Part shown: in pieces, positions 45,009 through 50,850 of the stretch
Position numbering within the stretch: position 1 is the stretch's first letter
Layout of the letters: each line of letters starts with the position of its first letter
NCBI GenBank assembly: GCA_017472305.1
Contig: JAFUQP010000034.1
Coordinates: 1 to 64,000, forward strand
DNA length: 64,000 bases
Direction: 5' to 3'
From: Clostridia bacterium
GTDB taxonomy: Bacteria; Bacillota; Clostridia; Oscillospirales; CAG-272
Program-made: the position numbers and the translations under genes
Notes under the pieces: generated by a model
Databases searched by the model: none
What the model saw: only the letters and a program-made list of their open reading frames with translations
Told to the model about the DNA's origin: nothing

Positions 45009-45037
45009 ATTTTAGCACAAATCGGGAGCTTTTTCAA
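45009..45037 (-). promoter_or_regulatory. Sigma-A promoter of the ECF S-component gene
   Basis: Minus-strand TTGAAA (45032-45037), 17 bp, TAAAAT (45009-45014). The -35 overlaps the stop codon region of the upstream surface-protein gene. Confidence 0.7.
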
Positions 45038-48000
45038 GTATTATCAGTAAAATCGCGCGTATTCTTTTTAACAGTAACAACCTTTACCGCCTCGCCGCCT
45101 GTCAGAGCTATCATTTTCACCGCAGAAAGGCTGAAGTCGTTGGCGTATACCGAGAGCGGCTTATCTATAGAGCCTCGGGCAAGCACCTTAAGGTATGCCG
45201 TATTATCCGAGAGGAGTCCCTTCGATTTGAGAATATTGATATCAACGCGCTCGCCGTCCGTAAAGCTCTCTGAGAGGGTATCTACGTTGATTATTCCCTT
45301 CTGATAGCCGCCCGTTATTACGCTTTCCCTGCTCTTTTTGACAAGCTCCTTTGCAAGAGAGTCGCTGATAAGCTCGTCGGCGCGCTCCATATCGACCGAG
45401 AGAGCCTCGAGTGCTTCGCCTATATGGTGACTTGCAAACAGGTCAGGGTCGTCGTGCGCCTCGCCGTGTGCCTCTCTTGGGGGTTGATTTTCAACGCTGT
45501 TTTTTCTTTCCGCTCCGTCCGTAAGCTCTGTCGGATATGCCTCGGTACAAGGCTTCTCCGACTTTTCCTCAGGAGCTTCGGCGTTTCTTGAAGAAGAATT
45601 ATCACTTCGGTCATTTTGCGGTAGCTCGGGGCGTGCGGAATACTCCTCGGGATAGCTTGAAAGTGTCCTCGGGGGCGGTATTCTGAGCCTTCTGTTATGC
45701 CACCTGCAAGAGGCTGCGGCAAAGCCTGCACGGATATTTTCCCTTCCCCGAATTGCAAGGAGCAAAAGAAGGACGAAAATAGCAAGCGAGAATGCCGACA
45801 GTAGGATTATTCGAGTTACGCGGGGCGAGGGATAGGGACGCTCGGTAACGCTTCCCGATGCAGAGGAAAGCTCGTAGTTCGGGTTGGTTGACACAAGATA
45901 CACCCGTCCGTCGCGGATAATTTGGGTATAGGTCAGCTCGTCCCCCTCGACCGGAGCGCCGTCCGTAATGCACAAATCCGCCTTGTCGCACTCGCCGCCA
46001 AGATAGCGCGAGATGTCGCCGACCGTCACAGAGAGCCTTCGCGGCAAGACTGTATACGACAGTGTGTCGTATTCGAGCCTGTAGTTATCGGGGTCTGTAA
46101 GCTTCAGCTTCAATAGATAATTCCCCGCATTCAGGATTTCGCCCTCATACGATAAGGTATATAAAGGACTTCCGCTTTCGGGTATCTTTGCGCGTCCGTC
46201 GTATACCGAGGGGGCGGGGACTGTGGGGGTGACGGTTGCCTTGTTTATAACGAACTCGCAGGGCGGGAGTGTCGGCTTGTTATAATTCTTAGTGTCATAT
46301 AGGAGCTGTGCCGTGACAGTATACCGCCCCGCAGCGGTACGCTCCGCGCCCTCATAGCCGACAACACTTATTCCCTCGGGCAGTCCCGAAAGCGTGGGCG
46401 ACTGAGGTGTGCCGTTATACTCGGTGACGGTGCTTTGCCACTTAATGCCCGAAAGGTCATAGTCGGCATAGCCGACACTGACGGGAATCGTTAACGTCTT
46501 CCCGCCGTAGCTCACGGATATTTCACTGTCGCCTCGCTCGGGAAGAGCCTTGCCGTTATAGCTGACAGTCAAATCCGAAAGAAGAAGCGGAATTTCTTCT
46601 CCGTCGTTATATAGCGCAACCGCCAGAAAATCACTGTCGGTCAATGGCGAGAGCGCGACGAGCGAGCTGTTATTCAGCGTTACTCGAAGCTCTGTTAATA
46701 CAACCTCCAAAACGGTGAAGGCAACCGGGGTATAAAAGAGGGGCAAATAGTTCTCGCTCTCGGGTATGCTCGCCCTCATATAATACCTTCCTGCCGAAAG
46801 CGGAAGCGTAGCAAAAAGACTGCAGGCTTCATCTGTGTAATAGTCGAAATTCGGTTCTCCAAAGTACGCAGAGGCGGTTGGTGCGGGGCTCTTACTGCTG
46901 TAGAAATCGCCGATTTTCGGTAGCTCAGTCCAGCTGTTTTCCGCCTTGAAAATCTCGAACTCCGCCTCGGGATTGGTTACTCTGTAATTTGGAGATACCG
47001 CTCTCGCCGTGGCGGTGTATTTGCCTGCATTGACCGCGGCTCCCGACACCTCGATTTCGCACTCAAGAGAGTGAGCCGAGGGAAGCTGCTCCCGTCCGTT
47101 ATAGGTGTATCTGTCAATCTCCCAGATAACGGCAACTCCCTTCGGAAGCACTCTTACAAATGCCGAAAGAGGCGCAGGGGCGCGGTAGTTCGGGCTGTTG
47201 CTGACAAAGACGAGCTTCACCTCGCACGCACCGTCCGAAACGTTAGTTGCCGAGCCGTCTATTCTGTAGGACAGCGGTATGCCGTCGGCTCCGACGGGCA
47301 TTTCTCCGACAACGCTCGGCGTATGCGCCCCACCGTCATAGACTGCCTCGGTATCCTCAAATTTTATACCTGAAATATCGTAGTCAGCCTTGTGAATTGT
47401 CCAGACGAGGCTTAGAGGCTTAGGGGGATTGTAATTCTTCTCGTCGTAGGAAAGAATCACCGTTGCGGTGTAGCTTCCTGCCTCGGTAGCCGAGCCGTCT
47501 GTGTAGCCTACGGCAACAAGACCGTCGGGAAGATTTTGTACGTAGACCTCTTTTTTCTCTCCGTCATAGACGAAGGAGGACGAGGAGAAGCTGACACCCG
47601 AGAGGTCGTAGTTGGCACGCTTTATACAAAAGAGGTGAGTCGGGTTTGTTATCACGTAATTTTTCGAATAGCTCTCTGCCGTAGCCGTGTATCCGTCGCC
47701 CGCGTCGGTTTTTGCGCCGAGGACGCTGAGAGGTCGGCTCACGCCGAGAACGTCGACAAAGGTTGCTGTCGGGCACTTTGCCGTGCCGTCGTAAACGAAC
47801 TCTTCTATGCCCCACAGTGCCTCTACCGAAAGCGGCTTTATTTCGAGGGAATAGCTCTTAGAAGGGGGACTGTTGTAGTTTGTGCTTTGTGTGTAGAAAT
47901 CGACGGTGACGTTATAGACTCCGACGTCGGTGCCGCCGCCGCTTATTTCTACCTTCAAGGGATAGCCGTCCTCCCCGACAATCTCACTTATGGCAGGTAC

Positions 48001-50151
48001 AAGCGTTCTGTAGCTTCCGTTATATACGAGCACAAGGTCGGATAGAGATAGCCCTGAGAGGTCGTACTCAGCGGCGGATACGATGACCGAAATTCTGCAG
48101 CTCTTGCCGCCGTATCCTATGTTTACAGCGTTATCGCCGTAAAGGAAGGTGTCGCCTCTCTGATAGCTGACGGTCAGCTCAGATGCCCCAAGCTCCTCTT
48201 CCCTACCGCCCGAATAGCTTGCAACAAGCAAAAGTCCCGTGCAGTCAAAGCTTTCGAAGGCGGTGTATGACAGTCTTTCGGGGCTTGATTTTACGGTGAG
48301 TGAGAGCAATCTCTCCTCCAACACGCAGAATTCTATGGGCTCTGACAAAAGCCCTGTGTAATTTGCGCTTTCCTCTACCGAGGCTACCATAAATCTTGTG
48401 CCTATACCCGAGGGAAGCGATGGTAAATATTCGCCCTCGCGCGATGCGGAATAGGAAAATACGACCTCACCGAATGCCGCGAATGCCTCGGGTGCGGGCG
48501 ACTGTCCCTCATAGATATCCGAAACCGAGGGAGAAACCGTCCAAGAGTTTTCCGCCTTCAGTATCTCAAACGGGACAGAAACGCGCCTCTCCGAGGTGCC
48601 CTCAAAGCTATAGTTATCGGGGTCGGTGAGTATAAGCTCGACTGGATATACCCCCGCATCTGTTGCACTGACGCGGCTTACCGAGTAGTAGGGGCTTTTC
48701 TGTATTGTCGGCGACTGATTTTCTCCGTTATAGTATTTTGCCCGAACCGTCGGCAGAGGCACCTTTGCTTTATTAATAACAAATGATACGTTTTCGGCTC
48801 TCACCGTCACCGAGTCACTGGAATAATAGAAGGTCACCTCGAGCGAATACACTCCGCTATCGCTATGTCGGCACAGCTCGAGGCTCTCGTCGTAGGACAC
48901 GACCTTACCGTCCTTATACCACCTGTAGCCAAAGAAGCCGCCCTCGTCAAGGAGGGTGTGCGTCAGCACGTCCGGGGCAAGAGTGTGAGAGGCTCCGTTG
49001 TAGTCGGCAAGGTAGGAAGAAATTTTAAGCGTGGGCGGCTTTAGCCTGTAGCCCGCGAAGAGCGAGAGGTCGGAGGTGACCGGCTCACCAAAGGAATATG
49101 CGTGCGAGGAGTCCTTGTCGGTATAGTAGCCCGAGTGACTGTAGCCCTTGATTTCGGGAGCGGTCGGTGCTGACAGTATTTCCCCCGAAAGAACCTCCTC
49201 GGTTCTGAACACTCCGGTTTTTCCGTAGTAGGTTACCCTATACGGAAGGTAGACCGCTGAGAAATTTTTCTCGTCGGAATAGGGTGACGAGGCAAAATGC
49301 GTCAGCCCGTATTCCCTTCCCTCTCGGTCGAAAATTCTGACAGCTTGCGCCCTCTCACTGTCGGAGCTATACAGCACCTCGGTAAGCGTACCGACCCGAA
49401 AGACGTCGGAGAGCATCACACAAAGCTCCTCGGTTGAGGAGTAGGCGACACCGCCCGCGGATAGCGTCAGAGGTCTGTCGGTTACAATATCGTAGCCTAC
49501 ACCGCTAATTTTTGGCGAGCCGGCGAGAAGAAGCGATGCAGAACAGCTTACGGCACTGCCCTTTGTGTTTACAATCTCTCCTCCGAGGGCGCAAAAAGTA
49601 CCGACCTCGGCTCTTACCGCGGCCAAATCGGACTCCGAGGTTATCTCCCCCGAGTACACCGTCAATTCGGACGAGGAGAGATAATCAAGAAGCACCGCAC
49701 CCGACGGCGAGCCGAGAAGTTTGGAATCGCGAAGCATAACAGCGCCGCCCTTGATACGCATATATGAACCTGAGGAGTCCGAAAAATCAAGAGTTAATGA
49801 ATCGAGAGTCAAGGCACAACCTTCGGGTACTGTAAATATTCCTTCGGTGACCGACAGCGCGCCGACGAGAGTATATTTTCCCTCGGGAAGCTTTGGCGGC
49901 TTGTCCGTCCTAATATTTTCAAGGATTACCGTAGCCTCGCTCGGCAGTAAAGAAAAACACTCTGTAAGAGTATCGGCAGACACGCTGCTGCTTCCGTCTG
50001 TAAAGGAGAGAGTATAAGAGTCCCCCGACTCCTTTATAATATATTCACCCGTACTGCGCCCGCCTTCGTTCGCGTCTTTGGCAGATGCGGAAAAACAGAA
50101 GGCACAAATAACAGTACAGAGCATTATTAAAGCACAAGTCAGCCTCTTCAT
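45034..50151 (-). CDS. Giant MBG/Ig-repeat surface protein with intracellular ribosomal L15-like domain
   Basis: This 1,705-residue protein begins with a signal peptide (CALIMLCTVICAFCFSASA). The long exterior part holds an InlB-type repeat (PEIKGYSHSGYYTDKDSS), MBG-type repeats that each start YDLSG or YDISG and contain VYNG or VYDG (such as YDLSGIKWQSTVTEYNGTPQ), and two bacterial Ig-like segments (LTVKSSPERLSYTAFESF). Near residue 1450-1470 a membrane helix follows (IILLSAFSLAIFVLLLLLAI). After it comes a ~145-residue charged linker and then an L15/L18e-like domain (last ~87 residues): GIINVDTLSESFTDGERV, KVLARGSIDKPLSVYAN, FSLSAVKMIALTGGEA. These align position by position with the C-terminal half of uL15. 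The ATG at 50151 has GGAG upstream. Confidence 0.88.
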   Translation of the reverse strand: MKRLTCALIMLCTVICAFCFSASAKDANEGGRSTGEYIIKESGDSYTLSFTDGSSSVSADTLTECFSLLPSEATVILENIRTDKPPKLPEGKYTLVGALSVTEGIFTVPEGCALTLDSLTLDFSDSSGSYMRIKGGAVMLRDSKLLGSPSGAVLLDYLSSSELTVYSGEITSESDLAAVRAEVGTFCALGGEIVNTKGSAVSCSASLLLAGSPKISGVGYDIVTDRPLTLSAGGVAYSSTEELCVMLSDVFRVGTLTEVLYSSDSERAQAVRIFDREGREYGLTHFASSPYSDEKNFSAVYLPYRVTYYGKTGVFRTEEVLSGEILSAPTAPEIKGYSHSGYYTDKDSSHAYSFGEPVTSDLSLFAGYRLKPPTLKISSYLADYNGASHTLAPDVLTHTLLDEGGFFGYRWYKDGKVVSYDESLELCRHSDSGVYSLEVTFYYSSDSVTVRAENVSFVINKAKVPLPTVRAKYYNGENQSPTIQKSPYYSVSRVSATDAGVYPVELILTDPDNYSFEGTSERRVSVPFEILKAENSWTVSPSVSDIYEGQSPAPEAFAAFGEVVFSYSASREGEYLPSLPSGIGTRFMVASVEESANYTGLLSEPIEFCVLEERLLSLTVKSSPERLSYTAFESFDCTGLLLVASYSGGREEELGASELTVSYQRGDTFLYGDNAVNIGYGGKSCRISVIVSAAEYDLSGLSLSDLVLVYNGSYRTLVPAISEIVGEDGYPLKVEISGGGTDVGVYNVTVDFYTQSTNYNSPPSKSYSLEIKPLSVEALWGIEEFVYDGTAKCPTATFVDVLGVSRPLSVLGAKTDAGDGYTATAESYSKNYVITNPTHLFCIKRANYDLSGVSFSSSSFVYDGEKKEVYVQNLPDGLVAVGYTDGSATEAGSYTATVILSYDEKNYNPPKPLSLVWTIHKADYDISGIKFEDTEAVYDGGAHTPSVVGEMPVGADGIPLSYRIDGSATNVSDGACEVKLVFVSNSPNYRAPAPLSAFVRVLPKGVAVIWEIDRYTYNGREQLPSAHSLECEIEVSGAAVNAGKYTATARAVSPNYRVTNPEAEFEIFKAENSWTELPKIGDFYSSKSPAPTASAYFGEPNFDYYTDEACSLFATLPLSAGRYYMRASIPESENYLPLFYTPVAFTVLEVVLTELRVTLNNSSLVALSPLTDSDFLAVALYNDGEEIPLLLSDLTVSYNGKALPERGDSEISVSYGGKTLTIPVSVGYADYDLSGIKWQSTVTEYNGTPQSPTLSGLPEGISVVGYEGAERTAAGRYTVTAQLLYDTKNYNKPTLPPCEFVINKATVTPTVPAPSVYDGRAKIPESGSPLYTLSYEGEILNAGNYLLKLKLTDPDNYRLEYDTLSYTVLPRRLSVTVGDISRYLGGECDKADLCITDGAPVEGDELTYTQIIRDGRVYLVSTNPNYELSSASGSVTERPYPSPRVTRIILLSAFSLAIFVLLLLLAIRGRENIRAGFAAASCRWHNRRLRIPPPRTLSSYPEEYSARPELPQNDRSDNSSSRNAEAPEEKSEKPCTEAYPTELTDGAERKNSVENQPPREAHGEAHDDPDLFASHHIGEALEALSVDMERADELISDSLAKELVKKSRESVITGGYQKGIINVDTLSESFTDGERVDINILKSKGLLSDNTAYLKVLARGSIDKPLSVYANDFSLSAVKMIALTGGEAVKVVTVKKNTRDFTDNT

Positions 50152-50282
50152 ACAAATCTCCATTTGGTAATATTTGTTAGTAATTATACCACCGGAAGCT
50201 ATGTTTATCAAGGCTTCGGAGCGTTAAGATTTCTCGCTATCCGACACACTCTCCAAGCTTTATGCAAAAGCCGAGAAAATAA

Positions 50283-50344: not shown

Positions 50345-50542
50345 CTACTTTTCTTTATAATAAAGGTAGCAATGGCAGTAGCCCTCAAAATTCTCATCCT
50401 TTATCTGGTCGCGGAATTCCTTGCACATACATTTATTATCCTCTGTGCGCTCAAGTCGGCAGGGGCAGTAGCCGCCCGTGCGAACGAGTCCTTCCTTAAT
50501 CGCCGCGACGACCTCGGCGTTTTCGTTAAGCCTTATCTTCAT
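50345..50542 (-). CDS. Ferredoxin-thioredoxin reductase catalytic-chain-like protein
   Basis: This 65-residue protein shows the FTR catalytic pattern of three Cys pairs: GGYCPCRL (Cys26, 28), NKCMCKEF (Cys38, 40) and GYCHCYLY (Cys56, 58). In FTR these hold a 4Fe-4S cluster beside a redox-active disulfide that passes electrons from ferredoxin to thioredoxin. At 65 residues it is shorter than plant-type FTRc (~115). Its start overlaps the trxA stop by 4 nt (ATGA), so the two are coupled and probably physical partners. No variable FTR chain gene is seen. Function as a thioredoxin reductase is inferred from motif and context. Confidence 0.82.
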   Translation of the reverse strand: MKIRLNENAEVVAAIKEGLVRTGGYCPCRLERTEDNKCMCKEFRDQIKDENFEGYCHCYLYYKEK

Positions 50543-50850
50543 CTGTACTTCTCAATAAGACGCGAAATACTTGCCTTAGGAACGTAGCCGACCGACATAT
50601 CCACAAAAACGTTATCCTTGACAAGGGCGACGAAGGGTATACTCTGTACCTTGAAGAGTCTTGCAAGCTCGGGCTCATTATCAACGTTAATCTTACCGAA
50701 CTTTACCTCGGGATATTCCGCCTCAAGCTCGTCAAGAGTAGGTGCAAGCATACGGCAGGGTCCGCACCACTCTGCCCAAAGGTCGATTACGACAAGGCCC
50801 TCTGCCTCCTCTACTTCTTTTTTGAAATTATCTTTCGTTATATTAAGCAT
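50539..50850 (-). CDS. trxA: Thioredoxin
   Basis: This 103-residue thioredoxin has the active site AEWCGPCRM (Cys29, Cys32) and the cis-Pro loop in QSIPFVAL, where most thioredoxins have IPT. It reduces protein disulfides in the cytosol. It is transcribed from a promoter at 50901-50929 and overlaps the FTR-like gene. Confidence 0.95.
   Translation of the reverse strand: MLNITKDNFKKEVEEAEGLVVIDLWAEWCGPCRMLAPTLDELEAEYPEVKFGKINVDNEPELARLFKVQSIPFVALVKDNVFVDMSVGYVPKASISRLIEKYR

Follow-up and report, generated by a model that had tools for sequence, protein, structure and literature searches.

Why should a giant clostridial surface protein end in a domain that resembles a core protein of the ribosome? 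The question is raised by a gene in the window analyzed here, a stretch of 64,000 nucleotides from a Clostridia bacterium of the CAG-272 lineage (assembly GCA_017472305.1, contig JAFUQP010000034.1, positions 1 to 64,000). The gene lies at 45034-50151 on the minus strand and is a single intact gene of 1705 residues plus stop, with its ATG at 50151 and its stop ending at 45034, the same frame and coordinates as in the original prediction. Its product is laid out as a signal peptide, a repeat ectodomain, a membrane helix, a linker, a short conserved segment that we call motif A, and a domain like that of ribosomal protein uL15, the product of rplO. We give an even chance to the explanation that this C-terminal tail is a domesticated uL15 fold that serves as a cytosolic docking module common to several kinds of surface protein. 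The original prediction had offered a reused L18e/L15 fold as an alternative to the ribosome or rRNA tether that it put first, and that alternative turns out to fit best.

Judged by its profile matches, the tail is predicted to have an L15/L18e fold. PF00828, the family of uL15, L18e and L27A, matches the window protein with 44.2 bits (E 2.7e-11, gathering score 21.5) over residues 1620-1689 and model positions 1-72 of 72, and the C-terminal 128 residues alone score 49.8 bits (E 4.8e-13). The domain as delimited by the tail alignments covers residues 1618-1690 (45082-45300, minus strand) and bears the tail signature AVKMIALTGG. uL15 chains come out on top of PDB searches, whether the query is the single sequence (best 6o8w, E 8.1e-8) or the tail profile (E 9.1e-15), and all 22 tail proteins scanned are above the PF00828 cut-off. 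When a profile of 25 tails is aligned to one of 10 rplO proteins, hhalign returns a probability of 99.6 and an E of 1.8e-23, with 36% identity over 74 columns, so the likeness is not due to chance. Tails and rplO also share their commonest residue at many columns (N11, F19, G22, V25, L30, K45, L47, G52, K56, L58, V60, A62, S66, A69, G77 and G78). Archaeal L18e and eukaryotic L27A, from the same Pfam family, align only partially, with 26.6 bits to 8hku_L18E and 21.3 bits to NF003079 (cut-off 85), and these matches are weaker than the best ones to bacterial uL15. A spurious or convergent similarity, or an artifact of assembly or gene fusion, would dispose of the question altogether; we found nothing in favor of this, and in view of the hhalign score, and of the same architecture in the separate assemblies of L033-L035 and L037, we give it almost no credence.

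Kinship with uL15 does not make the protein a part of the ribosome. Against the rplO model TIGR01071, with an equivalog cut-off of 77.95, the whole protein scores 31.8 bits and its C-terminal 128 residues 37.7, and the match begins at model position 74-75 of 144, i.e. in the second half. The basic, glycine-rich N-terminal arm of uL15 is absent from the window tail. The same genome carries a separate rplO (G000:C2, 75.5 bits), as the original prediction had thought worth confirming, and the window gene is thus not its sole uL15 gene. Its score under the rplO cut-off, its missing arm and the existence of a distinct rplO lead us to reject the tail protein as a ribosome component.

The surroundings of the domain suggest where it would reside. 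Residues 1-24 form a predicted signal peptide (50080-50151, minus strand, as are all parts of the protein), with a basic start, a hydrophobic core and a hydropathy peak, its cleavage site being deduced. The 1423 residues that follow (25-1447; 45811-50079) make up the extracellular repeat region, in which self-comparison reveals large, clear internal duplications, for example of about 500-680 with 1060-1250. This region had been described as MBG/Ig/InlB repeats; the InlB-type repeat Flg_new does exceed its Pfam cut-off (28.1 bits vs 27), but MBG_3 (21.1 vs 25) and Big_3 (19.4 vs 21.2) fall below theirs. A single membrane helix at residues 1448-1466 (45754-45810; hydropathy 3.0) is succeeded by a linker of 121 residues (1467-1587; 45391-45753), basic close to the membrane, acidic overall and fast-diverging, and then by motif A at residues 1588-1605 (45337-45390), delimited from the alignment of tails. 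One helix and a charged linker ahead of a uL15/L18e-type domain is what had been predicted, with helix and domain coordinates that agree with ours to within a few residues. Within 30 residues of the helix, 8 K/R follow it and 3 precede it; within 15 residues the two sides tie at 3 and 3. By the charge rule the C-terminus is probably in the cytosol, as the original prediction assumed, with the caveat that K/R counts do not amount to proof.

Similar tails recur on proteins that otherwise have little in common. Among 45 tail proteins (the window's and those of 44 loci) only L056 clearly departs from a C-terminal position of the L15-like domain, and in 43 of the 45 the domain is preceded by between one and three hydrophobic segments (counting signal peptides). 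The remaining parts vary, from InlB/MBG-like ectodomains through DUF1508 and long acidic or EPEPEP linkers to little beyond a helix, and in L051 and L059 DUF1508 (YegP-like) repeats come after the membrane helix, together with the L15-like tail. When K/R are counted up to 15 residues from the last helix, the tail comes out inside in 31 proteins and outside in 8, with 4 ties and 2 proteins lacking a helix. By eye, we also see a recurring domain that ends like PYETTEALIERGLIK, often ahead of the L15-like tail (L127:6772-7908, L036:7101-8306, L054:5012-6382, L133 and L134); scans of L036 and L127 gave it no Pfam name.

Conservation singles out the tail. Compared part by part with four relatives, the window protein is 71-79% identical in the L15-like domain and 67-83% in motif A, against 38-44% in the ectodomain (alignments of 682 to 1441 of its 1447 residues), which marks the tail as the most strongly constrained part; the linker (18-20%) and the membrane helix (11-32%) are less alike still. 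Once identical C-termini are merged, 46 tails can be set against 36 rplO proteins. The tails have K71 in 98%, M72 in 100% and L75 in 96%, and at the same columns the commonest residues of rplO are E (78%), K (97%, otherwise R) and A (61%). E81, invariant in rplO, is kept in only 4% of the tails. The new methionine at column 72 and the hydrophobic residue at column 75 both lie on the domain's last helix and form a pair.

The pair also goes together with motif A, a segment that the original prediction had missed. In a set of 56 tails, again after merging, all 46 proteins with motif A have M72 plus L, I or M at column 75, and none of the nine motif-A-less PF00828-like tails of the same family has such a pair; in the remaining protein, L040, the pair is present and its motif A escapes the pattern. 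Fisher's test gives 1.3e-9, uncorrected for kinship and with a motif pattern that was made after inspection of the alignment and that matches 30/892 control stretches. By another criterion, an initial count had found the pair in 43/43 tails with the motif and in 4/13 without, and those four carry motif A farther upstream, with 29 to 55 residues between it and the domain. We read motif A and the pair, from their sequences, as a two-part device whose halves belong together.

These patterns bear on the simplest alternative, in which the tail would be an inert folded knob, a small stable domain that hinders pull-out from the membrane or aids folding and has no specific partner. Its attachment to very different proteins, nearly always at the extreme C-terminus, is what such a knob would lead us to expect. 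The far higher conservation of the domain than of the rest, tail-specific K71 and M72 included, and the conservation of motif A along with it would be needless for a knob and count against one. We consider the knob unlikely.

Under the docking explanation, the globular C-terminal domain of uL15 would have been copied, would have lost its N-terminal arm, and would have been reused as a protein-docking module on the cytosolic side, placed beyond a membrane helix on a usually acidic linker. Motif A, short and probably helical, would act jointly with the Met/Leu pair that stands in place of the Lys and mostly Ala of rplO: either motif A folds onto the pair, or the two make up one interface. Giant repeat proteins, small membrane proteins and DUF1508 proteins of one clostridial family share the tail, from which we infer one common cytosolic partner. 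Docking of the tails by that partner might anchor or organize the assembly of surface structures, partly together with SipW-type signal peptidases.

The charge of the tail bears on another possibility, and the one that the original prediction had named first, namely that the L15-like tail holds ribosomes or RNA at the membrane and so couples translation with surface-protein export. The tail is homologous to a protein of the 50S subunit, and mitochondria possess ribosomal-protein-like membrane receptors for ribosomes, Mba1 and mL45. The domain core, slightly positive, keeps basic columns 45 and 56, is basic at column 33 as well, and has gained basic residues at columns 7, 31, 49 and 71. Yet the arm is missing, and where the N-terminal arm of rplO averages a net charge of +15.2 (21 rplO), the 90 residues upstream of the tail domain are acidic, with a mean of -14.4 and a maximum of +6 (54 rows, duplicates included). 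A basic residue stands at column 72 in 36/36 rplO and in 0/46 tails, where a hydrophobic pair has been gained instead; at column 38 the basic share drops from 0.81 in rplO to 0.02 in tails, and basic residues are thinned in tails at columns 57, 61 and 79. The site of uL15 on the 50S subunit, moreover, should already be occupied by the product of rplO. On balance tethering is not supported, and we regard it as decidedly unlikely. More doubtful still is its fuller form, in which the membrane-tethered ribosomal fold would be a receptor for ribosomes or RNA, with adhesin-like proteins and SipW/TasA-type fibers translated at their sites of assembly. If that were true, the tail would be an independently made bacterial analogue of Mba1 and similar ribosome receptors at membranes.

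The spread of the tail was followed with a profile of motif A plus the domain, which motif-A-less tails could escape, in overlapping draws of genomes from the window's family (196), order (295), class (391) and phylum (398). At E <= 1e-20 the family draw yields 41 places in 34/196 genomes and 15/71 genera, a spread over unrelated membrane proteins that the original prediction had not noticed. In the order draw (E <= 1e-13), full-length matches of over 85 bits are confined to the window's family among the matches listed; the others listed span just the domain, in frames some 145-200 residues long, and we take them as rplO by length and span. Full-length matches in the class draw are the window's own and those in three genomes of one other family (f90), and in the phylum draw the window's only. 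With PF00828 by itself as the query, 128 genomes of the class and 129 of the phylum yielded no frame of more than 233 residues apart from the window's. In the genomes drawn, motif A plus the L15-like domain is a lineage-restricted module. A viral origin of the tail was considered and dropped: when viral contigs were scanned once with the tail profile, no relative turned up, and of 22 stretches that matched a pattern 0 were confirmed.

A tree of 85 domains over 81 columns (36 rplO, 46 motif-A tails and 3 motif-A-less tails; bootstrap not fully settled) has one branch, with support of 100/100, that splits the 36 rplO from the 49 tails, the 3 motif-A-less ones among them. A single origin of all tails is not proven, because the motif-A-less tails sit on long branches. 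The motif-A tails alone need 3 changes in the tree, and one clade for them is not rejected (p-AU 0.468). The f90 tails (L097-L099) cluster with a single tail from the window's family (support 98/88), a placement that hints at transfer between the two families. Two of these three tails sit on proteins of about 3000 residues.

Some relatives also have SipW-like neighbors, which the original prediction had likewise missed. We counted 50 tail loci with at least 600 bp on both sides, leaving out L044, L050, L058, L061 and L126 as well as the window; L130-L135 had been added as long motif-A-less matches after the SipW neighbors of L064, L069 and L072 had been noticed. In 9/50 of these loci a gene for a SipW-like signal peptidase lies no more than 100 bp from the tail gene and on its strand, compared with 8/277 for the other open reading frames of these loci (p 2e-4), and all nine loci that hold any SipW-like gene have one that abuts the tail gene. 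The nine come from eight genomes and four genera. Five of the nine neighbors score above the cut-off of the signal peptidase model TIGR02228; in L064, L072 and L084 (whose gene is also that of L128) the neighbors are below curated cut-offs, and that of L069 is assigned by similarity to that of L064. Camelysin-like genes (PF12389) near the tail gene are over cut-off in L064 and L069 and are recognized in L072 and L084 by similarity to that of L064 only.

Such neighborhoods would suit a tail that is the membrane-side adaptor of a SipW/TasA-type fiber export machine, with the giant repeat proteins as further substrates or anchors. In its favor are the abutting SipW-like genes, the camelysin-like genes nearby, and a SipW-like gene on each side of the tail gene in 4/5 of the motif-A-less cases. 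However, 41/50 loci have no SipW-like gene within 100 bp, the window has none either, and its genome is without a PF12389 match. We see this role as quite unlikely. L075, L130, L131, L132 and L135 contain recurrent operons with genes for SipW-type signal peptidases and for small secreted proteins that look TasA-like by eye, and they also encode a two-helix membrane protein with a motif-A-less L15-like tail, whose linker is EPEPEP-like in all but L131. The window's genome, too, encodes one SipW-like signal peptidase (contig C39, L136:79-1890), a divergent one that by eye has additional membrane segments and has a small secreted protein beside it.

Several observations weigh against the docking explanation and its link to SipW. 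The five tails whose SipW-like neighbor passes a curated cut-off, out of nine SipW-adjacent tails, are those without motif A and without the pair. The window gene has no adjacent SipW gene, the sole SipW match in its genome (86% complete) is a weak one of 44.9 bits on another contig, and no PF12389 protein was found in that incomplete genome; for the window protein the link to fibers is therefore indirect. Its conserved neighbors look like housekeeping genes. Those common to the window, L033, L034, L035, L037 and in part L050 encode an ECF-like membrane protein, a pseudouridine synthase, an AlaX-like protein, a thioredoxin and a thioesterase (names from sequence reading), and as functional clues they suggest nothing. 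The net charge of the domain core is +1.65 for tails against -0.33 for rplO, and its total K+R is 9.6 and 10.6, respectively. Since the core is more positive than that of rplO, it may still bind nucleic acid, and the case against RNA binding that is built on lost positive charge is only half true. The 8/45 tails that score as outside by charge do not conform to a cytosolic module, some of them, such as L064, looking like cases of misplaced helix ends. Finally, our analysis found no partner of the tail, and docking is what we deduce from its sequence.

Known systems resemble parts of this arrangement. Like the MBG/InlB-type repeat surface proteins of Bacillota, the window protein has a signal peptide, repeats and a C-terminal membrane helix. 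Those proteins usually have little beyond their membrane anchor or finish with a sortase signal, and the window protein differs in carrying 239 residues with a conserved domain after its helix. The nine loci with an abutting SipW-like gene, and the four with camelysin/TasA-like genes near the tail, recall the tapA-sipW-tasA fiber operon of Bacillus, in which we know of no L15-like protein; the window gene itself lies outside any such operon. With uL15 the tail shares the whole of PF00828, and it differs in its membrane anchorage, in having motif A ahead of the domain, and in its arm and signature residues. Searches of one open-access library turned up no description of a membrane-tethered, arm-less, L15-derived tail. 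The domain family is known, and our results point to an apparently undescribed form of it: an arm-less, membrane-tethered tail with a motif of its own, on unrelated surface proteins of one family. It seems that in one clostridial family a core ribosomal domain was duplicated, lost its basic arm and came to serve otherwise unrelated surface proteins as a common cytoplasmic tail, which makes it a clear-cut example in which to study how a ribosomal protein turns into something else. Motif A plus KMIxLTGG would provide a sequence tag for finding the cytosolic partner of the surface structures. The tail is also relevant to annotation, because tail proteins match PF00828, which passages of at least one paper treat as a single-copy marker (PMC10102025).

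Upstream of the window gene, a consensus scan finds a sigma-70-like promoter, TTGATA-17-TATAAT, at 50183-50211 on the minus strand. With 11/12 matches it is the top one of 8 such sites in the scanned stretch, where shuffles give a mean of 3.7, and by itself it is no evidence of function. A putative ribosome-binding site, GGAG, can be read at 50158-50161 on the same strand, 6 bases 5' of the ATG. Farther upstream, the minus strand has a short cysteine-rich frame that resembles ferredoxin-thioredoxin reductase (50345-50542), adjoined by a thioredoxin-like gene (50539-50850), both named from sequence reading.

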